Shown: piece by piece, positions 4,024 through 37,954 of the stretch | Position numbering within the stretch: the first letter of the stretch is position 1 | Layout of the letters: the number at the start of each line of letters is the position of its first letter | NCBI GenBank assembly: GCA_021848095.1 | Contig: JAJZMZ010000024.1 | Coordinates: forward strand, 1-43,660 | DNA: 43,660 nt | Direction: 5' to 3' | From: Microcaldota archaeon | Lineage (GTDB): Archaea; Micrarchaeota; Micrarchaeia; Micrarchaeales; CABMGC01 | Notes under the pieces: model-generated | What the model saw: only the letters and a program-made list of their open reading frames with translations | Databases searched by the model: none | Told to the model about the DNA's origin: nothing | Made by a program: the position numbers and the translations under genes

Positions 4024-6828
4024 ATGGATAAAATGTTAGATATTAATTTTATTGAAGCAAAATGGCAACGTGAATGGGCCAATGCAAAACTTTTTGAGTC
4101 AGAAGTAAATCAAAAAAAACCATTTATGATTACAGCTGCGATACCTTATCCTAACGGTCCTCAACACATAGGACATTTTAGAACATATGGAACGGCAGAT
4201 ACACTTGCTAGATATAAAAGAATGAAAGGTTTCAATGTCCTCTATCCTTTTGGTTTTCATTTGACAGGAATACCGCTTTTAGCACAAGCAAATAAAGTAA
4301 AGGAAAGGGATCAGAACATAATTAATGACTTTAAAAGTTTTGGTATTTCTGATCAAGAAATAGAAAAGATGTCAGATCCTCTTTATATGGGTACTTACTT
4401 TGCAAGTGAAGTAGAAAGTGGCATAAAACTTTCAGGTTTCAGTATAGATTGGAGAAGGAGATTTACAACAATAGACCCAAAATTCAGCAAGTTTATAGAG
4501 TGGCAGTTTGAAATTCTTAAAGAAAAAGGGTGTTTAGTTCAAGGAAGTCATCCGGTGGGGTGGTGTAAAAAAGAAAGTAATGCTGTAGGTATGCACGATA
4601 CAAAAGGAGATGCTGAACCTGAGATAGAACAAGAATCAGGAGTAATATTCGATATAGTAGGAGAAACATATGGATTAATATGCGCAACATATAGACCAGA
4701 AACAATTTATGGTGTTACAAATGTTTTCGTTAAACCTGAAACTACATATTATATATGTAAGGTAAATGATTCACAAAATATTATTGTATCGGATAAAACT
4801 TATGAGAAATTAAGTTTCCAATTAAAATTAGAAAAGATATCTGAAATAAAAGGACAAGAGTTATTAAATAAAAAATGTATAAATCCGTTATCTAAAGTAG
4901 AGATACCAATTTTACCGGGATCATTTGTAAAGGAAGATTTAGGGACAGGAAGTGTAATGAGTGTACCTGCACATGCTCCATTTGATTACGTTGCATTAAA
5001 AAAACTATATAACTCTGGTTACTTAAAAGAAGAGGTTAAACCTGTAGTTGTATTAAAAATAACAGGTGTCGAAGCTGAGATACCCTCAATATATTACCTA
5101 ACAAAGGTATCTGGAGATATTAATTCTTCTGATGAAAAGATAGAAGAAGCGACTAAATTAGAATATAAAGAAGAAGCACATAAAGGAGTAATGACATTTC
5201 CAGGTTATGAAAATGTATCTGAGTTAGAAACAAGAGAAAAGATAAAGAATGCATTATCTGTAGATAAAAAATACTTTCCGATTTATATTTTAGCAAATAA
5301 AACTAAGGTTTTATGTAGATGTGGTACTGAGATAGTTGTTAAAGTAATAGACAATCAATGGTTTATAAACTATGGAGATGAAACTTGGAAAAGTTCAGCA
5401 ATGAAGTTACTATCTGAGATAGATGTAATTCCATTAAAATCAAAAAATGCTCTTTCATCAGCTATAAATTGGATAAATTTAAGAGCGGTTGCAAGAGCAC
5501 AAGGATTAGGAACTAGATTCCCATTAGATAAAAATTACATAATAGAATCACTTTCTGATTCTACAATATACATGGCTTATTATACAATAGATTATATAAT
5601 AAAAAGTGTTGATGATGAAAAACTTACACCTGAATTTTTTGATTTTGTATTTAGAGGGATAGGAAATATAGAAGATATATCGAAAAAAACAGGAATAGAT
5701 TATGAAGTAATTAAAAAATCACGCGAATCATTTACTTATTGGTATACAAATACGTCAAGAGCTTCAGGATTAGATTTAATTTTTAATCATCTTACGATGT
5801 ATATTTTTAACCATGTACTAATTTTTGATAAAGAATACTGGCCTAAACACATTGTTATAAATGGTTTAGTAATGATGAATGGAGAAAAAATGAGTAAAAG
5901 TTTGGGAAATGTACTTTTAGTCAAAGACGCAATTAAAAAGTATGGTTCAGATATTTTAAAGTTAGTTGAGATAGGCAATGCCGATCTTTTTAATGACTCA
6001 GACTTCAATGTAGAAACAGCAAATAGTGTTAGAGATAAATTAGAGTTCTTTTTTGATTGTTGTGTGAAACTTAATGAAATACCTAGCAATAAACTTGAAC
6101 AAATTGATTATTGGTTATACTCTAAATTAAACAATAAAAAAACTATAATAACAAATGCAATGGAGAAATTAGAGTTAAGAGATCTTGTAACAAATATAGT
6201 ATTTAATACCTCAATAGAGTTAAAAAGATACTTTAGCAGAGGAGGGAATAATGCAATTGTATTGAAAGATTATCTTTCAGATGTATCATTGATGTTACAA
6301 CCTATTGCACCACACATATCAGAAGAGTTATGGCACATATTAGGAAATACAACATTTACAACAACTGAGAAGTGGCCTGAAACAGATAAAGAATTAATCG
6401 ATATGAAAATAGAGGAAAAAGAGCAAGAAATAGACTCATTAATAGATGACATAAAACAAGCATATGAGTTAACAAAGAAAAAAATACCCAACATATCTTC
6501 ATGTAATATTATTGTTGCTAGTCAATGGAAACGTGATGCACTGAACTCTTTAATTGAAACCAAAAAAATAGATGCAACAATTACGTCTTTAGGAGATAAA
6601 GTAAACAAAGAACAAGCAGCAAAGTATCTCTCGCAATTATTTAAAAAAGTAAATGAATTAAAAATGTGCAGTATAAGTGAGCAAGATGAGTATGAGTCTT
6701 TAAGTTCTTCAAAAGAATACATCTCAAAAATAATAGGAATTCCAATAGAAATTCAAAGAGAAAATGATTCTATCTCACAGAGAGCGGGTAAGGCTACGCC
6801 GATGAAACCAAGTATAGAAATACTTTAG
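4024..6828 (+). CDS. leuS: Leucyl-tRNA synthetase (archaeal type)
   Basis: 934 aa; PYPNGPQHIGHFRTYGTADTLARYKRMKGFNVLYPFGFHLTGIP (HIGH motif region) and NGEKMSKSLGNV (KMSKS). Confidence 0.97.
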   Translation: MDKMLDINFIEAKWQREWANAKLFESEVNQKKPFMITAAIPYPNGPQHIGHFRTYGTADTLARYKRMKGFNVLYPFGFHLTGIPLLAQANKVKERDQNIINDFKSFGISDQEIEKMSDPLYMGTYFASEVESGIKLSGFSIDWRRRFTTIDPKFSKFIEWQFEILKEKGCLVQGSHPVGWCKKESNAVGMHDTKGDAEPEIEQESGVIFDIVGETYGLICATYRPETIYGVTNVFVKPETTYYICKVNDSQNIIVSDKTYEKLSFQLKLEKISEIKGQELLNKKCINPLSKVEIPILPGSFVKEDLGTGSVMSVPAHAPFDYVALKKLYNSGYLKEEVKPVVVLKITGVEAEIPSIYYLTKVSGDINSSDEKIEEATKLEYKEEAHKGVMTFPGYENVSELETREKIKNALSVDKKYFPIYILANKTKVLCRCGTEIVVKVIDNQWFINYGDETWKSSAMKLLSEIDVIPLKSKNALSSAINWINLRAVARAQGLGTRFPLDKNYIIESLSDSTIYMAYYTIDYIIKSVDDEKLTPEFFDFVFRGIGNIEDISKKTGIDYEVIKKSRESFTYWYTNTSRASGLDLIFNHLTMYIFNHVLIFDKEYWPKHIVINGLVMMNGEKMSKSLGNVLLVKDAIKKYGSDILKLVEIGNADLFNDSDFNVETANSVRDKLEFFFDCCVKLNEIPSNKLEQIDYWLYSKLNNKKTIITNAMEKLELRDLVTNIVFNTSIELKRYFSRGGNNAIVLKDYLSDVSLMLQPIAPHISEELWHILGNTTFTTTEKWPETDKELIDMKIEEKEQEIDSLIDDIKQAYELTKKKIPNISSCNIIVASQWKRDALNSLIETKKIDATITSLGDKVNKEQAAKYLSQLFKKVNELKMCSISEQDEYESLSSSKEYISKIIGIPIEIQRENDSISQRAGKATPMKPSIEIL

Positions 6829-7968: not shown

Positions 7969-8661
7969 TTAAAAACCACGAAATAGTACTCCCCTGTATA
8001 AGTTAGACATTATAAATGCAATGACTAACAAGAATCCTATGTTATATATCATACCGGTTACTGATAAACCAATAAATGGACTTAAATATAGTAAAAGAAT
8101 AACTGTAGAGATTAATGTAATTACATAAATAGGTTTATTCCAGCTTAAAACCTTACTTCCATCAAGTGGATATATTGGAAGCATATTGAAAAAAGCTAAC
8201 CATAAATTAATGAATGCAGTAAATACTAATGTTGCTTCTATGTATGTATTAAATTGTATTAGAAATGCTAATGCAAACACAATAAAGAACAGTATCAAGT
8301 TTGTTAAAGGACCTACTAGTGAAACTATACCGTTTTCTTTTTTTGTGAAGTTATTCGTGTAGATCATTGTTGCTCCGGGCATTGCCATTAAAAATCCAAT
8401 AAAACTGGTTACAAGGGCAATTATTATACCAAAATCAGATCTTTTGAATGCGGCTACTGCTCCAAAACGCTGTGCTGAAATTTTATGCATGTATTCGTGT
8501 AATATAAATGAAACAGTAACTGCAATTAATGCCATAGGAAAGTAATATATGAAATTTTTAAATCCTAAAATAATAGAAAATGCTATAGATAAAGCTATGT
8601 CTGCTATTATTAAGTCAGTAAGCTCTTCTTTTGTGGGAATATTACTTCTAGCGTTTGCCAT
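7969..8661 (-). CDS. Site-2 protease family (M50) membrane metalloprotease
   Basis: HEYMHKISAQRFGA (HExxH) plus downstream NMLPIYPLDGSKVL (zinc-ligand NxxPxxPLDG) in a multi-TM protein. Confidence 0.9.
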   Translation of the reverse strand: MANARSNIPTKEELTDLIIADIALSIAFSIILGFKNFIYYFPMALIAVTVSFILHEYMHKISAQRFGAVAAFKRSDFGIIIALVTSFIGFLMAMPGATMIYTNNFTKKENGIVSLVGPLTNLILFFIVFALAFLIQFNTYIEATLVFTAFINLWLAFFNMLPIYPLDGSKVLSWNKPIYVITLISTVILLLYLSPFIGLSVTGMIYNIGFLLVIAFIMSNLYRGVLFRGF

Positions 8662-8752: not shown

Positions 8753-8845
8753 AGCCCCATCGTCTAGTGGTCACCTTTTAATTAGGACATAAAAGGACGG
8801 CAGGCTCTGGACCTGCAAACGCCAGTTCGAATCTGGCTGGGGCTA
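8753..8845 (+). tRNA. tRNA-Gln (anticodon CTG) with a ~21-nt insertion in the D-loop
   Basis: Acceptor AGCCCCA/TGGGGCT, anticodon arm GCAGG-CTCTGGA-CCTGC, T arm GCCAG-TTCGAAT-CTGGC, discriminator A. D stem GTC (8762-8764)/GAC (8796-8798) is separated by an enlarged loop containing CCTTTTAATTAGGACATAAAA. Confidence 0.93.
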
Positions 8846-8877: not shown

Positions 8878-9510
8878 ATGAACATGTCTTCTTCTGCTTT
8901 TAAAACAAAGCAATTCCCTTTAGAAAAAATAGATTTGTATTCTGTAGAGTTATGTTCGGGTTTAGAAAAAAGAGGATTAAAAAATAATAATGTATTTTTT
9001 AAGTGTATAAGATCAGACATATATCAAGATAATAGATTTCTTTTTGGAAAGGACGTTTTTGATACAGCTAGTTTTAAACATCCATTCAGATCAGAAAGAG
9101 CAGTAGTGGTCAGATACAAAGAGTTAGAGATAACAGGAGAGTTCAATCAACTTGAAAAGATATACAGAGTAATGCCTGAAAGTACAGCTATACCGATATG
9201 TTTAGTCACTTTTAGAAATAATGTAGTAGGTTATCTTGCTGAAAATGTAAGTGGAACACCTTTTCTTTCTTTAAAAAGAGATAAAAGAGTAAAATACCTT
9301 AATGAGTGTGTAATTCCAGTTATCTACAAACTGCATCAAAATAATATCGGACATGGAGATATATTGGTGGGTAACTCAGAAGGAGGAGGAAACATATTCA
9401 TAGTTGAGAATGGCATAAAATTAATAGACCCTCTACCTGGATATAAAGGAATTACAGATAAAGAAAGAATTGAATTTGACATAGAAAATATAAGACGTGT
9501 GTTGAGTTAG
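8878..9510 (+). CDS. Divergent minimal protein-kinase/aminoglycoside-phosphotransferase-fold protein
   Basis: 210 aa; LHQNNIGHGDILVGN resembles a kinase catalytic loop (HxD...N) and GIKLIDPLPG resembles the metal-binding DFG/D-P region. Confidence 0.6.
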   Translation: MNMSSSAFKTKQFPLEKIDLYSVELCSGLEKRGLKNNNVFFKCIRSDIYQDNRFLFGKDVFDTASFKHPFRSERAVVVRYKELEITGEFNQLEKIYRVMPESTAIPICLVTFRNNVVGYLAENVSGTPFLSLKRDKRVKYLNECVIPVIYKLHQNNIGHGDILVGNSEGGGNIFIVENGIKLIDPLPGYKGITDKERIEFDIENIRRVLS

Positions 9511-10943: not shown

Positions 10944-12011
10944 TTGATAAGTGAAGCGTTTAATGGCTCAGTTAAATATCTTCAAATAATGAATGAAGAG
11001 GGAGAAATAGATCAGACAGTTATGCCACAGGACATAAGTGATTCTCAGATTTTAGAGATGTATAAAGGAATGATGCTTGCAAGAGCTGTCGATGCTAAAG
11101 TCCTTAGTCTTCAAAGACAAGGACGTGCAGTAACATATGCACCTTTACTAGGTGAGGAAGCGACACAGATAGGAACAGCAATGGCTATGAGAAAACAAGA
11201 TATCTTTGTTCCAGCTTTTAGACAACATGGAGTATTTATAGAAAGAGGAGTTCCAATGGACTCATTATTCTTATACTGGAGAGGTTTTGAGGAAGGAAAT
11301 GTTTTTCCAAAAGAGCTCAATGCATTTCCAATAATAGTTCCCGTTGCAACGCAGATGCCACATGCTACAGGAATTGCTTTTGCACAACGATATCTTAAAA
11401 AAGACTCGGCCGTTTTAGTTTATGTCGGAGATGGAGGAACTTCAGAAGGAGATTTTTATGAAGCAATTAACTTCGCAGGCGTTTGGAAAGTACCACTAAT
11501 AACAATAATAGAGAATAATCAATGGGCAATTTCACTACCTAGAAATGAACAAACAATGGCAAAAACATTAGCTCAAAAAGCTATAGCAGTAGGTATCGAT
11601 TCTATTCAAGTAGATGGAAATGATGTTTTAGCTGTTTATAAAGCAACTAAAGATGCAATAACAAACTCAAGTAAAGGCCCAATGATAATAGAGTGTGTAA
11701 CATACAGAATGGGTTTACACACTACATCTGATGACCCTACAAAGTACAGAACAGATATTGAGGTAGAAACATGGAAAAAGAAAGATCCTATTGAACGTGT
11801 TAAAAAGTATTTAGTTAAAAAAGGATTATGGAATGATGCAAGAGAACAACAAGAAACTGAAGCAATTTCTAAATTAGTTGATGAATCTGTAGAAAAAGCT
11901 GAAAGATTTAAACCAGATCCTAGAAGTATGTTTAGTACAGTTTACAGCTTTATGCCACAAACACTTCGTGAAGAGTTTGATGAAGCTGAGGCGAATAACT
12001 TTTGGCAGTAG
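10944..12011 (+). CDS. pdhA: 2-oxoacid (pyruvate) dehydrogenase E1 component alpha subunit
   Basis: 355 aa; GDGGTSEGDFYEAINFAGVWKVPLITIIENNQWAIS (thiamine-diphosphate motif), YRMGLHTTSDDPTKYR; TTG start supported by GGTG 5 nt upstream. Confidence 0.95.
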   Translation: MISEAFNGSVKYLQIMNEEGEIDQTVMPQDISDSQILEMYKGMMLARAVDAKVLSLQRQGRAVTYAPLLGEEATQIGTAMAMRKQDIFVPAFRQHGVFIERGVPMDSLFLYWRGFEEGNVFPKELNAFPIIVPVATQMPHATGIAFAQRYLKKDSAVLVYVGDGGTSEGDFYEAINFAGVWKVPLITIIENNQWAISLPRNEQTMAKTLAQKAIAVGIDSIQVDGNDVLAVYKATKDAITNSSKGPMIIECVTYRMGLHTTSDDPTKYRTDIEVETWKKKDPIERVKKYLVKKGLWNDAREQQETEAISKLVDESVEKAERFKPDPRSMFSTVYSFMPQTLREEFDEAEANNFWQ

Positions 12012-12019
12012 GTGTTTTT

Positions 12020-12985
12020 ATGCAAATGAATATGGTTTCTGCACTTAACAATGCATTAGATATAATATTGAAAGAAAATGACAAAGCGTTAATTTTAGGA
12101 GAAGACGTAGGAAAAGACGGTGGTGTTTTCAGAGTTACTGAAGGTTTATTAGAAAAGTATGGTGAAAATAGAGTAGTTGATACACCATTAGCTGAATCAG
12201 GAATTATTGGAACATCTATAGGGATGGCACTTTCAGGTTTACACCCTATATCAGAGATTCAGTTCGCAGGTTTTATGTTCTTAGGTTTTTCACAATTAAT
12301 AAATCACGCTTCTAGATATAGAACTAGAACACGATCTAATATGAGTTTACCAATGGTTGTAAGAACACCTGTAAGTGGAGGTGTCAGAACACTAGAACAT
12401 CACTCAGATAGTCCAGAAACGTACTACTCGCACATTGGTGGTTTAATAGTTGTGGAACCATCTACACCTTATGATGCAAAAGGTTTGCTTATAAAAGCGT
12501 CTAGAATGAATGATCCAGTTGTATTTTTAGAGCCAACAAAACTTTACCGTTTATTTAGAGAAGAAGTTCCTGAAGAACCATATGAAGTTACAATAGGAAA
12601 AGCAAAGGTAGTGAGAGAGGGCAGTAAATTAAGTATAGTTACATATGGAACTATGGTTCCGGTAGTTAAAAGTGTTGTTGAAAAGAAAAAGCTAGATGCT
12701 GAGATAATTGATTTGAGAACTATAAATCCAATAGATGAAAAAACTATTTTAGAAAGTGTTAGTAAAACAGGAAGAGTTGCCATTGTTCACGAAGCATCAT
12801 TAAGTTTTGGCGTAGGAGCGGAGATAGCAGCAAGAATTTCTGAAAAAGCGCTTTATAAATTAAATGCGCCTATTGTAAGAGTAGGTGGAAATAGTTTCCC
12901 ATATCCATATCCAGGATATGAAAACTTCTATGTTCCAAATGAAAAGAAGATATCTTATGCATTGGATAAACTGTTAAAGGGTTGA
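12020..12985 (+). CDS. pdhB: 2-oxoacid (pyruvate) dehydrogenase E1 component beta subunit
   Basis: ALNNALDIILKENDKALILGEDVGKDGGVFRVTEGL; ORF track begins at TTG 12002, but ATG at 12020 preceded by GGTGTTTTT is the more likely start. Confidence 0.95.
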   Translation: MQMNMVSALNNALDIILKENDKALILGEDVGKDGGVFRVTEGLLEKYGENRVVDTPLAESGIIGTSIGMALSGLHPISEIQFAGFMFLGFSQLINHASRYRTRTRSNMSLPMVVRTPVSGGVRTLEHHSDSPETYYSHIGGLIVVEPSTPYDAKGLLIKASRMNDPVVFLEPTKLYRLFREEVPEEPYEVTIGKAKVVREGSKLSIVTYGTMVPVVKSVVEKKKLDAEIIDLRTINPIDEKTILESVSKTGRVAIVHEASLSFGVGAEIAARISEKALYKLNAPIVRVGGNSFPYPYPGYENFYVPNEKKISYALDKLLKG

Positions 12986-12988
12986 GTT

Positions 12989-14353
12989 ATGAAAGAGTTA
13001 AAATTTGTTGATGTTGGAGAAGGAATAACAGAGGGAAATATTAAAAAATGGTTGTTCAAAGACGGAGATTCGGTAAAAGAAGATACAACTATAGTACAGA
13101 TAGAAACTGACAAAGCAGTAGTAAATATACCTGCACCAGTATCTGGTAAGTTAAAGATAGTTGCAAAAGAAAATACAACACTTAAGACAGGAGATACAAT
13201 AGCATTTGTAGGAGATGATGTTTCTACAACAACACCTCAACAAACAACACAAGGACCATCAAGTAGTGTTATCAGTAAGGCAATACACGAACAAGAAAGT
13301 ATCAAGGAGTTTGGTTTTGCGCCGGATTCTGATGCTGCAATTAATGCTCCTTCAACTAGCACAGCACAGCCACAAAAAACTACGACACAACCGCAAACAA
13401 ACATAAATCAACAACAAACAAATACAATTCAACCACAAATGAATACAACAAAGCAACAACAAAAAACAGAGGTCATTGCAACACCAGGCGTAAGAAAACT
13501 TGCAAGAGACTTGAATATTGATATAAATACAGTAAAAGGAACAGGTCCTAATGGAAAGATACTTGAAAATGATGTTAGATCCGCTTCAATAAGTACAAAT
13601 AAGAAAACATCAATCCCTAAGTTTTCAGAAACATTAGAAAAGTCACACACAGAAGATATTGAAAGAGTTCCATTAACACAAACAAGAAAAGCAATAGCAA
13701 AGAATATGGAGTTATCATGGTCAATACCAAGAGCAGTGCATATGGATCACATAGATGTAACAAATCTTTACGATTTAGTAAAAAGGGAAAAGGAGAACAT
13801 GGCTAAAAGAAATGTAAAGCTTACTTTCTTACCATTTATAATTAAGGCAACAATAGAAGCAATTAAAGAGAATCCACGATTTAACTCTAGTTATGATCAT
13901 GAAAAACTTGAGATAATATTAAAAAAATATTACAATATAGGATTAGCAGCACAAGGTCCTGATGGATTAAAGGTTGTAGTTATAAAAAATTCTGAGAAGA
14001 AGAATATTTCAGATATTGCAAAAGAGATACAAATGTTGTCAGAGAAAGTTAAAAAAGCAGAGGTTTCATTAGAGGATATGTCAGACTCAACATTTACTAT
14101 AACCAATATAGGAAGTTTAGGAGGAGGAGATTTTTCAGTCCCAATGATAAATTATCCTGAAGTTGCAATATTAGGAATACATCTAATAAGAGATACACCT
14201 GTAGTCAAAGATGGTGAGATTCAAATAAGAAAAATACTTCCATTTTCACTTACATTTGATCACAGAGTAGTTGATGGAGCTGATGCAGTAGCTTTTGGTA
14301 ATGCACTGAAAAGATATCTAGAGGATCCTGATTTTCTAGAGTTAATTGCTTAG
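12989..14353 (+). CDS. pdhC: 2-oxoacid dehydrogenase E2 (dihydrolipoyl acyltransferase)
   Basis: One lipoyl domain (IVQIETDKAVVNIPAPVSGKL), peripheral subunit-binding domain (ATPGVRKLARDLNIDINTVKGTGPNGKILENDV), catalytic DHRVVDGADAVAF. Confidence 0.97.
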   Translation: MKELKFVDVGEGITEGNIKKWLFKDGDSVKEDTTIVQIETDKAVVNIPAPVSGKLKIVAKENTTLKTGDTIAFVGDDVSTTTPQQTTQGPSSSVISKAIHEQESIKEFGFAPDSDAAINAPSTSTAQPQKTTTQPQTNINQQQTNTIQPQMNTTKQQQKTEVIATPGVRKLARDLNIDINTVKGTGPNGKILENDVRSASISTNKKTSIPKFSETLEKSHTEDIERVPLTQTRKAIAKNMELSWSIPRAVHMDHIDVTNLYDLVKREKENMAKRNVKLTFLPFIIKATIEAIKENPRFNSSYDHEKLEIILKKYYNIGLAAQGPDGLKVVVIKNSEKKNISDIAKEIQMLSEKVKKAEVSLEDMSDSTFTITNIGSLGGGDFSVPMINYPEVAILGIHLIRDTPVVKDGEIQIRKILPFSLTFDHRVVDGADAVAFGNALKRYLEDPDFLELIA

Positions 14354-14361
14354 TTGATTTT

Positions 14362-15741
14362 ATGGTAATGGGCTCTATACCTGAAAAAGTAAATCTTGCA
14401 ATAGTAGGTGGTGGTGTAGGAGGTTATGTCGCGGCTATACGCGCCGCTGAGCTAGGTCTTTCAGTAATTATAATAGAAAAGGACAAGATGGGTGGCCATT
14501 GCTTAAACTATGCGTGTATACCGTCTAAAACACTATTGCACATTGCTGATATATACCACAAAGCAAAGAACTCACAAAACTTCGGAATAGAAGCTGAGCC
14601 AAAAATAAATGCACAAAAAATATTAGAGTGGAGAATGGGCGTTTCTGAAAAGCTAGAAAAAGGTGTAGAATTTTTATGTAACTCTAATGGAATAGAGATA
14701 GTAAAAGGCGGAGCAACATTCATATCCTCTCAAAAGTTACAGATAACTAATGGAACTGAGATTGATTTTGATACCGCAATAATAGCAACCGGTTCTGTCC
14801 CAGTAGAGTTAAAGGGCTTTGAGTTTAATGACTACATACTTGACTATAAAAAAGCATTAATGCTTTCAACAATACCTAAAACATTAACAATAATAGGAGC
14901 AGGATATGTTGCAGTAGAGTTAGCTACACTTTATGCTAAGCTTGGTGTTTCTGTTTCTATACTTGCACGATCAACTATTCTATCACATTTTGATCCTGAA
15001 GCTGTTTCAATAATAGAAAAAAGCCTTGAAAAGTTAAATGTTAAAATTTACAAAAACTCAGTTCCTGAGTCACATACACAAACCTCAATTAAATTGAAGT
15101 CAGGAGAAGAAATACCGCACGAGTTAGTTGTTGTAGCAGTAGGATTAAAACCATACACTGATAATTTAGGTTTAGAAAATACTAAAGTAGTTGTAGATCA
15201 AAAAGGTTTCATAACTGTCGGACAATCGTTAAACACAGCAGATGAAAAGATATTAGCAATTGGAGATGTTATAGGGGAACCGATGCTTGCACATAAATCA
15301 ATGAGACAAGGGGTCATCGCGGCAGAGGTAGCTGCTGGAAAAAATGCCGGTTTCGACAATGTCGTAATACCAGCAGTTGTATTTTCAGACCCAGAAATTG
15401 GAATAGCAGGAGATGTTTCTGAAAAAACAGGAATTTACATTAAAAAGTTCCCATTAACTGCACTTGGAAGAGCAATAGCAATGAACAAAACAGATGGCTT
15501 TGTTAAGATTGCATATGATAAAAATAAAGTAGTGAAAGGTATTGAAATTGTATCGTCTGATGCAAATGCAATGGTTGCTGAAGCTGCGTTAGCCATAGAG
15601 ATGGGTGCAACATTAGAAGACATTGCAGATACAATACATCCTCATCCAACATATACTGAACAAATACAGGAAGTAGCAGAAGCAGGTTTAGGAAGACCAA
15701 TACATTTCTTTTATGGAAAAAATAATGAAAATGGTAAATAA
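14362..15741 (+). CDS. lpdA: Dihydrolipoyl dehydrogenase (E3)
   Basis: GGGVGGYVAAIRAAELG; GGHCLNYACIPSKTLLH redox-active Cys pair; second Rossmann IIGAGYVAVELATLYAKLG; C-terminal HPHPTYTEQIQE. Confidence 0.97.
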   Translation: MVMGSIPEKVNLAIVGGGVGGYVAAIRAAELGLSVIIIEKDKMGGHCLNYACIPSKTLLHIADIYHKAKNSQNFGIEAEPKINAQKILEWRMGVSEKLEKGVEFLCNSNGIEIVKGGATFISSQKLQITNGTEIDFDTAIIATGSVPVELKGFEFNDYILDYKKALMLSTIPKTLTIIGAGYVAVELATLYAKLGVSVSILARSTILSHFDPEAVSIIEKSLEKLNVKIYKNSVPESHTQTSIKLKSGEEIPHELVVVAVGLKPYTDNLGLENTKVVVDQKGFITVGQSLNTADEKILAIGDVIGEPMLAHKSMRQGVIAAEVAAGKNAGFDNVVIPAVVFSDPEIGIAGDVSEKTGIYIKKFPLTALGRAIAMNKTDGFVKIAYDKNKVVKGIEIVSSDANAMVAEAALAIEMGATLEDIADTIHPHPTYTEQIQEVAEAGLGRPIHFFYGKNNENGK

Positions 15742-17186: not shown

Positions 17187-20100
17187 TCACGGTAAAGGTT
17201 GCGCATTTGTAGATATTGCAATTCTTTGATAAGTCATATCGCCTAATCCGTTTGAACCATAGCCAAATTCAGTTCCGATAGGCAATGTGAATGTGCCCGT
17301 ATTAGCAAAGGAAACATTAAACTCGCCACTAGGTCCATTTTCAAATGTAGAGTTATAAGTAATTAGATCATAAATACTGTATACTGAACCTCCATTAGTA
17401 ACACTAGCAATACCAGAATATAAGTACTTACCATCCGGAGATACTATCATTTCTCCAGGTCCGCCAGTAAAACAACCACCACCATTGGCACCTGAATCAT
17501 AGTTTATTTTAACTATTTTTTGAAGTTGTGTATTTATCGTTGCAATTGCGCAATTAGAAAATGGAGTTGAATAACCTACAAAAACAAATGTTCCGTTAGT
17601 TGTAGATGTCATAGCATCTCTTTTGTTGTTGTAAATGGTATCATAGAAATTAAAATGAGGAAGTGATATCGTACTGAAAGCATTTGTATTCTTATTGTAT
17701 ATTGCAACTTCTCCGTTTTCTGGACTTAACATGTAAACATATGGTGTATTATTAACTGGAACTACAGGAGGATTTGTTAAAATTGAGTTAGTTGATTGAG
17801 ATAATAATCCCGAATCAGTTACTGTCCAATAACTATAAGTTATAAACTCATTTGGACTAGGTGGCGAAGAACAACTAAAAGCTCCGGCATCTCCAGTGCC
17901 CGCGGCGGTTTGAGTATCACTATTCCCATTTGCATTGTATGTTGAAGCTATAGTATCATTTAATGGATAATTGAAAACTATTTGAGCTGCCGTTGCGCCC
18001 ATACCTCCAGGAGCAGGACCAGGAGCATCACTATAATCATCTTGAAGTTGAGTTTGATAAGATAATACAGTCATATCGTTATTTTTTTCAAGCATTCCAT
18101 TTATATAAACAGTAGAAGTTGATGCAAAACCATAATTTGCTTCAGCAGCACAAACAGAACCAGAAGATGAGGACATAGATGAAAAAGCATCTATTGTTTG
18201 ATAAGGGGTTAGATATAAGTTTCCTGCAGCGCAAGGACCTCCTGAAGGGCAGTTTGCAGCTTGAGAATTACTAGTTGTTGCAGCCATACCAGATAAAATA
18301 ACATTTGTTGGAAACACTTGGGATAAAGTTTGAGCATAAAACTCGTAATTTACACTTCCTGAAGGGTATATTGAGAAGAAATTTCCATTTGGTTGTGAAA
18401 AATCAGCCACCATTGGTAAATAATACGTACTTGTTTCAGGAGTCATTGGATAACCAGAGTTATAAAAGTATGAAATTTGCGCTTCTGGCGCTACAATATT
18501 TGAGTTAACAATATTTTGTGTAGTATTAGCAGTAGTCAATAACGCTTGTCCATCATTTATAGTATTGCCAGTGTAGTTATAACCTCCAATTCTTAAGTTA
18601 TTTCCATCATAAAGTAATGCAGTAGGAGAAAATGTAGATGGTAATGTAACATTTTCTTTGTTTATTAAGTATGCACTGCTTATAATACTAACCTGTCCAA
18701 AGTTTGTAGAACCTGGATTATAATAATTTCCTGATTTCTGAGCGCCTGTTGTGTATATATTGTAGTTATTTTGTGGTGCGTATACAATGTCTGCATTTCC
18801 ATAAGTTTTAGGAGTATTTAAGTTATTTTCTAGGCCCAGAACACCATCTTGAGAACCTGATTTAAGATTATAAATTTCATAAAAGTTTCCAGAACCTACC
18901 GTTGTGCTTACATATAAATCAGTACTATTTGCACTTGAAACAAAGTTATATTGTGAGCCCGTAGCTAATGGAATAGAATCGGGATAATTAACGTAGGGAT
19001 CAGTGGATCTGAAGTTCTGAACACTCTTTACACTGGAAACGCCACTTCCACTTACTGGAAATGTGTATACGGTTTCGTTTGATAGTACAACATAAAGATC
19101 AGTAAGATTACTACTTAATGTTGCACCAACAGTATAGTTACTTAAAGATAATGCTACGTTTGTGTAGTTTATCTTTAACGATGTTGTGTTAAATGATGCT
19201 ATTGACGAGTTGTATTCAGATGAAGATGTTCCATTGACCATTGCAAAGTACATAAAGTTTCCATCTGTTACCATATTTATTATTCCAGAAGCAGAACCTA
19301 TTGAAGGTCCGAATTTGTTTATTAATATATTTGCTGCCATTGAGTTATTTTTGGTGGTATTTAATACATATAAATTAGTTGAGTTTGAAATAAAAGCATA
19401 ATTACCTAACATTATGAAACTTGTGAAGTAAGGATTATATGCTGCATCTGAAGCCGATGATCCGATAATATTAGTTAAGTTTTTAACTTGTATTTTATTG
19501 TAAGTGTAGAATAAATTAGAGGATGTCATAGCATCTTGCAAATCAGTTTTATTGATTATTACTAAATATGGGCCTTCTGGTGTATTAAAAGCTGATGATG
19601 TCCCTCCTATTAAGATGTAAAGTGAACCTGATGAGTTAAACTGCATTGAATAGCCATCTCCAGAAGCTACTCCTTGAATTATAGTCGTATTTGCAGTTGA
19701 GTTTGCTATTAAAGCTTCCTTAACTACTGATTCAGTAGATGTATTTATTATTACTAGAGCAGCTGTGAAACTGCTATTTCCATCATTATAAAACTTAGAT
19801 AAGTCATAAACATAACCGTCTCTAGAAACTGTAATGTAATTGTGATTAGATTCATAGTATGAGCTACCTATACTGTTCAACACATTGTTGTGGTACATAT
19901 CGCTTACTAGCCCTATCGTTTGTCCACCGTTATTATTGCTGTAGAAATAAGTATCCTTTGATGGATAGGTATAAGCTGGAACTGGATAATAGAAACCTGT
20001 TTGTTTATTGAAGTTTGCCGTTTCCACCGTATTGTCACTCATAGTTAAGGTGTTTGTTGATGCTGTTCCTGCATAACATCCTATACCAGTACAAGTCCAA

Positions 20101-21266
20101 TCATTAAATTCATAACCAGAAGCAGGAGTTTCAGATATTATTACTGTGTTTCCAGCTTGATATGAACCACTTGGTGGAGAGGCAGTTCCCCCATTTGTTG
20201 GATTAACATTAGTTGTTAAGGTGTAAGTTGCAATTGATTGTTGGAAGTTTGCTGTTTCTACAATATCTGAGTTCATTGTTATTGTTGCTGATTTTGTAGT
20301 TCCAGAGTAACAACCCGTTCCTGTACAAGACCAACCCGTAAATATATAACCTGATGCAGGAGTTTCTGAGATTGTAACTTGTGTTCCAGAGTAATAACTT
20401 CCTGAAGCAGGAGTCACCGTTCCTCCATTTGATGGAACTGAGTTTGTTGTTAAAGTATAAGTTGCTAATTGGTTGAAGCTTGCCGTTTCTACTATATTAG
20501 CATCCATAATTATTGTCGGATTAGTAGATGTTCCTGAGTAACAACCCGTTCCAGTACAAGTCCAATCGTTAAATGAATAACCCGTACTTGGAGTTTCTGA
20601 GATTGATACTGATTTCCCACTGTTATAACTTCCTGAAGTTGGAGATGTCGTACCTCCATTTGTTGGAGAAGGATATGTATTTAATGTATAAGTAGGCAAC
20701 GTTGTTGTTGTACTTAATAAAGAATTATATTGATAAATATATGTCAAACCGCTTCCTGAAGTTGTTAATGAAACTTCTTGTTTACTATTACTATTACAAT
20801 TTTGAGAGATACATTCAGAGTATGTTAAGTAAAACTGTGGACTTATCTCAGAACCTATTGGAAGTGTAAGACCAGTTACTGAGATAGTACATGTAATACG
20901 TTCACCTTGAAGAGCTGTAGAAGGTTGACAACTACCTTGATAATACTGTGAGTTAGGAGTAAACTTAATTGAAAATGAAGAAGAGGAAAAATATAAGGGT
21001 TTATTGACATTATTTGAAAACTCAATTAATGCAGATGTTCCAATTGAGTTAGAGTTTATCAAAAGTTGATAACATGGAAACTCTGGAGAGATATAACAGT
21101 ATGACGATGCATATGTTGTTTGATTGCTCGAGTAGTAAAAGTAAATGACGAGTACTGCAATTAATATTATTATTGCCCATGAGTAACTAAGAACATATTC
21201 TATTGCGGATTGCTGTTTTGAAGTTTTTTTTGTAGTGCCGTGTAGTATTTTTTTAGAAGATGCCAT
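17187..21266 (-). CDS. Giant pilin-like surface protein: class III (SAIEY) N-terminus, three Cys-pair repeats, large beta-rich (propeller-like) ectodomain
   Basis: 1359 aa; KKTSKQQSAIEYVLSYSWAIIILIAVLVIYF type IV pilin-like N-terminus; three InlB-B-like repeats with CTGTGCYSGT; MIVSPDGKYLYSGI propeller-like motif near C-terminus. Confidence 0.88.
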   Translation of the reverse strand: MASSKKILHGTTKKTSKQQSAIEYVLSYSWAIIILIAVLVIYFYYSSNQTTYASSYCYISPEFPCYQLLINSNSIGTSALIEFSNNVNKPLYFSSSSFSIKFTPNSQYYQGSCQPSTALQGERITCTISVTGLTLPIGSEISPQFYLTYSECISQNCNSNSKQEVSLTTSGSGLTYIYQYNSLLSTTTTLPTYTLNTYPSPTNGGTTSPTSGSYNSGKSVSISETPSTGYSFNDWTCTGTGCYSGTSTNPTIIMDANIVETASFNQLATYTLTTNSVPSNGGTVTPASGSYYSGTQVTISETPASGYIFTGWSCTGTGCYSGTTKSATITMNSDIVETANFQQSIATYTLTTNVNPTNGGTASPPSGSYQAGNTVIISETPASGYEFNDWTCTGIGCYAGTASTNTLTMSDNTVETANFNKQTGFYYPVPAYTYPSKDTYFYSNNNGGQTIGLVSDMYHNNVLNSIGSSYYESNHNYITVSRDGYVYDLSKFYNDGNSSFTAALVIINTSTESVVKEALIANSTANTTIIQGVASGDGYSMQFNSSGSLYILIGGTSSAFNTPEGPYLVIINKTDLQDAMTSSNLFYTYNKIQVKNLTNIIGSSASDAAYNPYFTSFIMLGNYAFISNSTNLYVLNTTKNNSMAANILINKFGPSIGSASGIINMVTDGNFMYFAMVNGTSSSEYNSSIASFNTTSLKINYTNVALSLSNYTVGATLSSNLTDLYVVLSNETVYTFPVSGSGVSSVKSVQNFRSTDPYVNYPDSIPLATGSQYNFVSSANSTDLYVSTTVGSGNFYEIYNLKSGSQDGVLGLENNLNTPKTYGNADIVYAPQNNYNIYTTGAQKSGNYYNPGSTNFGQVSIISSAYLINKENVTLPSTFSPTALLYDGNNLRIGGYNYTGNTINDGQALLTTANTTQNIVNSNIVAPEAQISYFYNSGYPMTPETSTYYLPMVADFSQPNGNFFSIYPSGSVNYEFYAQTLSQVFPTNVILSGMAATTSNSQAANCPSGGPCAAGNLYLTPYQTIDAFSSMSSSSGSVCAAEANYGFASTSTVYINGMLEKNNDMTVLSYQTQLQDDYSDAPGPAPGGMGATAAQIVFNYPLNDTIASTYNANGNSDTQTAAGTGDAGAFSCSSPPSPNEFITYSYWTVTDSGLLSQSTNSILTNPPVVPVNNTPYVYMLSPENGEVAIYNKNTNAFSTISLPHFNFYDTIYNNKRDAMTSTTNGTFVFVGYSTPFSNCAIATINTQLQKIVKINYDSGANGGGCFTGGPGEMIVSPDGKYLYSGIASVTNGGSVYSIYDLITYNSTFENGPSGEFNVSFANTGTFTLPIGTEFGYGSNGLGDMTYQRIAISTNAQPLP
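20004..20693 (-). repeat. Three tandem ~75-aa protein repeats (divergent InlB B-repeat-like)
   Basis: TYTLNTYPSPTNGGTTSPTSGSYNSGKSVSISETPSTGYSFNDWTCTGTGCYSGT...NIVETASFNQ / TYTLTTNSVPSNGGTVTPASGSYYSGTQVTISETPASGYIFTGWSCTGTGCYSGT...IVETANFQQ / TYTLTTNVNPTNGGTASPPSGSYQAGNTVIISETPASGYEFNDWTCTGIGCYAGT...TVETANFNK. Confidence 0.9.
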
Positions 21267-37883: not shown

Positions 37884-37954
37884 TGGAGGTACAGGGAATC
37901 GAACCCAGGTCTTCACCGTGTAAAGGTGACGTCCTACCATTAGACTATACCTCC
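37884..37954 (-). tRNA. tRNA-Val (anticodon TAC)
   Basis: Reverse strand GGAGGTA-TA-GTC TAATGGTAG GAC-G-TCACC-TTTACAC-GGTGA-AGAC-CTGGG-TTCGATT-CCCTG-TACCTCC-A; all arms form, with one T-T mismatch in the T stem. Confidence 0.95.

Follow-up and report, generated by a model that had tools for sequence, protein, structure and literature searches.

The tRNA-Gln(CTG) gene

The window analyzed in this study is a 43,660-nucleotide stretch of DNA from a Micrarchaeota archaeon, in which positions 8753 to 8845 are a tRNA-Gln(CTG) gene with an interrupted D-loop. The question raised by this locus is whether the additional nucleotides are an intron removed from the precursor or an extension kept in the mature tRNA. 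The gene is located where an earlier, sequence-only reading placed it; it has the acceptor stem AGCCCCA/TGGGGCT, followed by the discriminator base A8845, the anticodon CTG at positions 8807 to 8809, and the T-loop TTCGAAT, and the arms other than the D-loop are intact. ARAGORN made a single call on the window, tRNA-Val at positions 37884 to 37954, and a search with the Rfam tRNA model at the gathering score likewise found tRNA-Val and missed tRNA-Gln(CTG). In the genome-wide search with the tRNA model, tRNA-Gln(CTG) reaches 27.1 bits, just below the cut-off of 29. As a D-loop intron can hide a tRNA-Gln(CTG) from both tools, the apparent lack of this tRNA in Micrarchaeota genomes may be false. 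Introns of this kind are sought by tRNAscan-SE 2.0, the models of which were trained on Crenarchaeota, Euryarchaeota, and Thaumarchaeota (PMC8450103). The sequence-only reading had raised the possibility of another intact tRNA-Gln(CTG); the assembly of the window genome, which is 91% complete, was checked for it and yielded none. The tRNA-Gln(TTG) gene of this genome (locus L022), which reads GTGGCCAAGGAC, is uninterrupted and intact.

Position and length of the insertion

Orthologues were searched for in 60 genomes of the order, including the window genome. An M50-family protease gene (positions 7969 to 8661; Pfam E = 1.5e-12) adjoins the tRNA in the window, and the same neighbor stands beside interrupted and uninterrupted copies alike in relatives, including an intron-less genome of the same genus (G003, locus L064); therefore, the compared tRNA loci are orthologous. 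Nearly all uninterrupted relatives have GTGGTC|AAGGAY at the junction, with single-base variants in a few, and the interrupted orthologues carry 16 to 49 nt between GTGGTC and AAGGAC. The comparison with relatives, which had been proposed as a check, thus fixes the exact junction. The window insertion is the 20-nt sequence ACCTTTTAATTAGGACATAA at positions 8773 to 8792 (or, slid by one base, the equivalent 8774 to 8793), located between positions 20a and 20b of the D-loop, and its removal yields the sequence of the intron-less relatives at the same spot. Because two A's stand at the junction in the uninterrupted orthologues, the insertion has a length of 20 nt and the mature tRNA a length of 73 nt, which rules out the previously suggested insertion of about 21 nt (8774 to 8794 or 8773 to 8793) that would leave a tRNA of about 71 nt. 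The 5′ exon (8753 to 8772, forward strand) comprises the 5′ strand of the acceptor stem, the D-stem strand GTCT (8762 to 8765), A14, and GTGGTC of the D-loop; the 3′ exon (8793 to 8845, forward strand) starts with AAGGAC, which includes the D-stem strand GGAC (8795 to 8798; alignment A2), and continues with the anticodon arm, the variable loop, the T arm, the 3′ strand of the acceptor stem, and A8845. The insertion is precise, lies in an otherwise normal tRNA gene, and is missing from some orthologues, as is expected of an archaeal intron of the bulge-helix-bulge (BHB) type. Many BLAST matches covered query positions 41 to 93 alone and raised the suspicion of a split tRNA; the 5′ exon is directly upstream in these cases, without the insertion, and a split tRNA was rejected.

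BHB structure of the homologous insertions

The archaeal BHB consists of a 4-bp helix with a 3-nt bulge on either side and is cut after the second base of each bulge. The sequence-only reading could not draw a clean canonical BHB, because a 7-bp inverted repeat (CCTTTTA/TAAAAGG) was taken as the structure and the junction was placed one base off; a near-canonical BHB emerges once the relatives are aligned. A single register fits all 26 distinct homologous insertions, with 3 to 4 of the 4 pairs formed in the central helix and 2 to 9 bp in the intron stem. The shared fold begins with the D-stem GUCU/GGAC and an A14·A mismatch, after which GUGG (positions 15, 16, 18, and 19) pairs with the four intron bases preceding the last two. 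The intron strand of this helix is usually CCAU, with CCAA, CCGU, CUAU, CUAC, CUGC, or ACAU as variants. The 5′ bulge is UC|A, AC|A, UC|U, or AC|U, and the 3′ bulge is AA|A, or AU|A in one case. The intron stem is usually UUGC/GCAA, and UGGC/GCCA, UUUC/GAAA, CUGC/GCAG, CCU/AGG, and others are also found. Two 3-nt bulges, a 4-bp helix, and flanking helices are thus observed for the homologous family, with a relaxed form in the window copy, and the BHB cut rule yields exactly the exon junction of the uninterrupted genes.

The pairing is well preserved. GTGG and intron columns 46 to 49 are paired in 91% of cells among 25 homologues, the intron stem (columns 22 to 25 with 42 to 45) in 99% of cells of alignment A2, and the whole BHB structure in 98.6% of cells of the same alignment. 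The intron stem covaries, with 12 double changes compared with 1.7 in shuffles, and slid controls are paired in 11 to 51%. The position and shape that the insertion has in common with those of the relatives are far beyond chance.

BHB elements of the window copy

In the window, all elements are on the forward strand. The exon strand of the central helix, GTGG, is at positions 8767 to 8770, and is followed by the 5′ bulge UCA (8771 to 8773), in which the register of the 26 insertions and the uninterrupted junction place a predicted cut, UC|A, after 8772. The intron stem consists of CCT (8774 to 8776), which belongs to the covarying columns, a loop TTTAATT (8777 to 8783), and AGG (8784 to 8786), which is supported by both the covariation and the minimum-energy fold of the precursor. 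The intron strand of the central helix, ACAT (8787 to 8790), forms three of the four pairs with GTGG, leaving a G19·A mismatch, and the 3′ bulge AAA (8791 to 8793) has a predicted cut, AA|A, after 8792, as given by the junction of the uninterrupted orthologues. Every element is present, but with three central pairs and a 3-bp stem, the window BHB is weaker than those of its relatives; shuffled inserts match it in 471 of 20,000 trials (2.4%), and the case for it therefore rests on homology. The ACAU variant also occurs beside a 6-bp stem in an otherwise different intron (L066, G027).

Folding of positions 8753 to 8845, another check proposed by the sequence-only reading, gave a lowest-energy full precursor that keeps the D-stem and CCU/AGG and excludes the 7-bp hairpin, and that departs from the BHB solely in the short helix separating these two stems. 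The energy model slightly favors this other pairing in the D-loop region (−34.9 versus −30.6 kcal/mol for the BHB), a gap that is partly due to an additional D-stem pair that either fold could accommodate.

The 7-bp inverted repeat

The 7-bp repeat is present in the window, as reported previously, and as CCUUUUA/UAAAAGG it is the best fold when the D-arm segment is folded alone, which would speak for an insertion that stays in the mature tRNA and extends the D-loop by a stable hairpin. This explanation is very unlikely. Two bases of the D-stem, G22 and G23, are used in the hairpin, which thus competes with this stem, and no conserved structure compatible with a mature D-arm was found. The corresponding columns of 25 homologous insertions are paired in 43.6% of cells, compared with 44.5% when shuffled, whereas the BHB is conserved; furthermore, the insertions vary in length and many orthologues have none. 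A functional role for the repeat was rejected on the same grounds, i.e., it is not conserved and is absent from the best fold of the precursor. A similar hairpin, CUUUUAU/AUAAAAG, is found in G014. The duplication of AGGAC was also noted previously; its first copy is at positions 8784 to 8788 rather than 8783 to 8787, where it overlaps the intron stem and the intron strand of the central helix, and the homologues are generally without it. For these reasons, the duplication was not taken as a mark of insertion or as an alternative D-stem.

A further idea, to which we attach little probability, is that the intron has drifted in the lineage of the window such that the 7-bp hairpin competes with the BHB and makes splicing conditional, for example on temperature. 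Conditional splicing of tRNA-Gln(CTG) would then control translation of the rarer codon CAG.

Splicing endonuclease and RtcB

The window genome encodes a 385-amino-acid protein with two tRNA_int_endo domains (G000:C5, L080), residues 10 to 385 of which match the structure of the epsilon-2 endonuclease of ARMAN-2 (PDB accession number 4fz2) with E = 8e-146. The type of splicing endonuclease, which the sequence-only reading had suggested looking for, is accordingly epsilon-2. In the 4fz2 alignment, Tyr233, His249, and Lys280 of L080 are the counterparts of the catalytic residues Tyr236, His251, and Lys282, and Tyr157 and Lys158 are the counterparts of Tyr160 and Lys161 in the ARMAN-specific loop. 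In ARMAN-2, alanine at Tyr236, His251, or Lys282, or at Tyr160 or Lys161, abolishes detectable cleavage (PMC12397907). By analogy with the ARMAN-2 enzyme, the protein encoded in the window genome is predicted to be able to cut relaxed motifs. An RtcB-family protein (PF01139, E = 7.8e-171) is also encoded.

The insertion is very probably an ordinary non-canonical archaeal tRNA intron, which the splicing endonuclease would excise before RtcB joins the exons; of the two options offered by the sequence-only reading, the conserved BHB supports the intron with a relaxed motif and speaks against the extension retained in the mature tRNA. In the precursor, the D-stem GUCU/GGAC would remain formed, GUGG of the D-loop would pair with the 3′ segment of the intron (ACAU in the window, usually CCAU) as the central helix, and the intron stem (CCU/AGG in the window, usually UUGC/GCAA) would close the far side of the BHB. 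The epsilon-2-type endonuclease would then cleave within each 3-nt bulge, at UC|A and at AA|A, after which RtcB would join the exons into the 73-nt tRNA-Gln(CTG). The sequence itself shows the gene with its junction, a BHB shape that is conserved, and a gene for each of the two enzymes, and expression, cleavage, and ligation are predicted.

The gene could also be a decayed pseudogene, with CAG read through wobble by tRNA-Gln(TTG), the gene of which is intact, and CAG is indeed the minor glutamine codon (75 CAG versus 281 CAA in 30 ORFs of the window). However, apart from the insertion, every stem of tRNA-Gln(CTG) is perfect, the tRNA and its insertion are identical in the sister genome G002, the flanks of which are 96.5 to 98.2% identical, homologous insertions with a covarying structure are widespread, and the 91%-complete assembly yielded no other CTG copy, all of which make decay extremely improbable. 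An assembly or sequencing artefact can practically be dismissed, since, although the window comes from an assembly fragmented into 41 contigs, the identical sequence is found in the separate assembly of G002 (L094) and homologous insertions are found in G042 and L082, two complete chromosomes that each form a single contig. L082 is the homologous intron of Ca. Micrarchaeum A_DKE, a cultured relative.

Comparison with known archaeal introns

The tRNA-Gln(CTG) D-loop intron is a new case of a type of archaeal tRNA intron that is already known (PMC4033280, PMC12397907). Similar to the non-canonical introns of Thermoproteales, Thaumarchaeota, and ARMAN-1/2, it is short and located outside position 37/38, in this case in the D-loop, and as in known BHB introns, two 3-nt bulges flank a central helix and a broad-specificity splicing endonuclease is encoded in the genome. 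On the other hand, the 20a/20b family of tRNA-Gln(CTG) was confined to Micrarchaeota in the searches made, and in the lineage of the window one position of the central helix is a G·A mismatch. ARMAN-2 shares the phylum and the endonuclease type, with the catalytic and ARMAN-specific-loop residues conserved in the window genome. The substrates of the ARMAN-2 enzyme are pre-tRNA-Ile(UAU) of the BHB type and pre-tRNA-Cys(GCA) of the BHL type, whereas both the tRNA and the intron are different here, and cleavage of the window precursor is a prediction. In the open-access papers searched, a set outside which lie the 2011 ARMAN-2 study (Fujishima et al.) and the genome tRNA databases, no description of the 20a/20b family was found.

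Distribution of the insertion

An insertion at exactly the same junction is present in at least 32 of the 164 genomes of the order, and the carriers are all Micrarchaeota; a strict pattern matches 30 of these genomes, and the insertions of L059 (G056) and L066 (G027), which are outside the pattern, were added. A global scan for the tRNA with a 12- to 42-nt insertion in 84,980 named bacterial and archaeal genomes gave 27 matching stretches, all of the Micrarchaeota type. The genomes are named Micrarchaeota, Micrarchaeum, or Mancarchaeum, except for three labelled Marsarchaeota by their submitters, and the introns of these three match copies from the order of the window exactly or very closely (L084 is the same as L056 of G043, L083 resembles L049 of G055, and L090 is one base off L082). 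The insertion is rare in the family of the window (G000, the window genome; G002; G014; and G027) and common in the sister family. On the tree of the M50 protein, the intron label requires approximately seven state changes, only one of which is forced by strongly supported branches. A D-loop intron thus occupies a fixed site in one tRNA of a lineage with an epsilon-2 endonuclease, and because it is present, absent, or variable in length among close relatives, it offers a clean natural series for the gain, loss, and tolerance of tRNA introns.

Other features of the genome and the window

Two copies of tRNA-Thr(GGT) in the window genome (L023, G000:C4:43513-43603; L024, G000:C29:5045-5135) have a 19-nt insertion in the D-loop, ATATAATTATTTACACTAG in L023, in which CACU pairs perfectly, by eye, with the exon segment AGUG; this insertion is a second predicted D-loop BHB intron of the genome. 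ARAGORN called one of the copies tRNA-Val and missed the other. tRNA-Leu(CAA) (L038, G000:C18:24031-24128) has an insertion within the T-loop, and tRNA-Arg(TCT) (L041, G000:C38, around 5941-6040) has a T-loop insertion with a 7-bp stem, AAACTAT/ATAGTTT; both are probably T-loop introns. The insertion of tRNA-Gly(CCC) (L037, G000:C25:20226-20311) is in the anticodon loop and is very short, i.e., 13 nt according to ARAGORN.

In the window, a 210-amino-acid ORF with no Pfam match lies just 3′ of tRNA-Gln(CTG) (positions 8878 to 9510); it is identical in G002 and has 44% identity to an ORF in L179. Four adjacent genes at positions 10944 to 15741 encode, according to Pfam, all components of a 2-oxoacid dehydrogenase complex, namely E1 alpha, E1 beta, an E2 that has both lipoyl and E3-binding domains, and E3, in this archaeal genome of approximately 0.8 Mb. 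On the reverse strand, positions 17187 to 21266 encode a 1359-amino-acid protein that is probably located at the surface and contains three divergent copies of the InlB B-repeat domain (PF18998).
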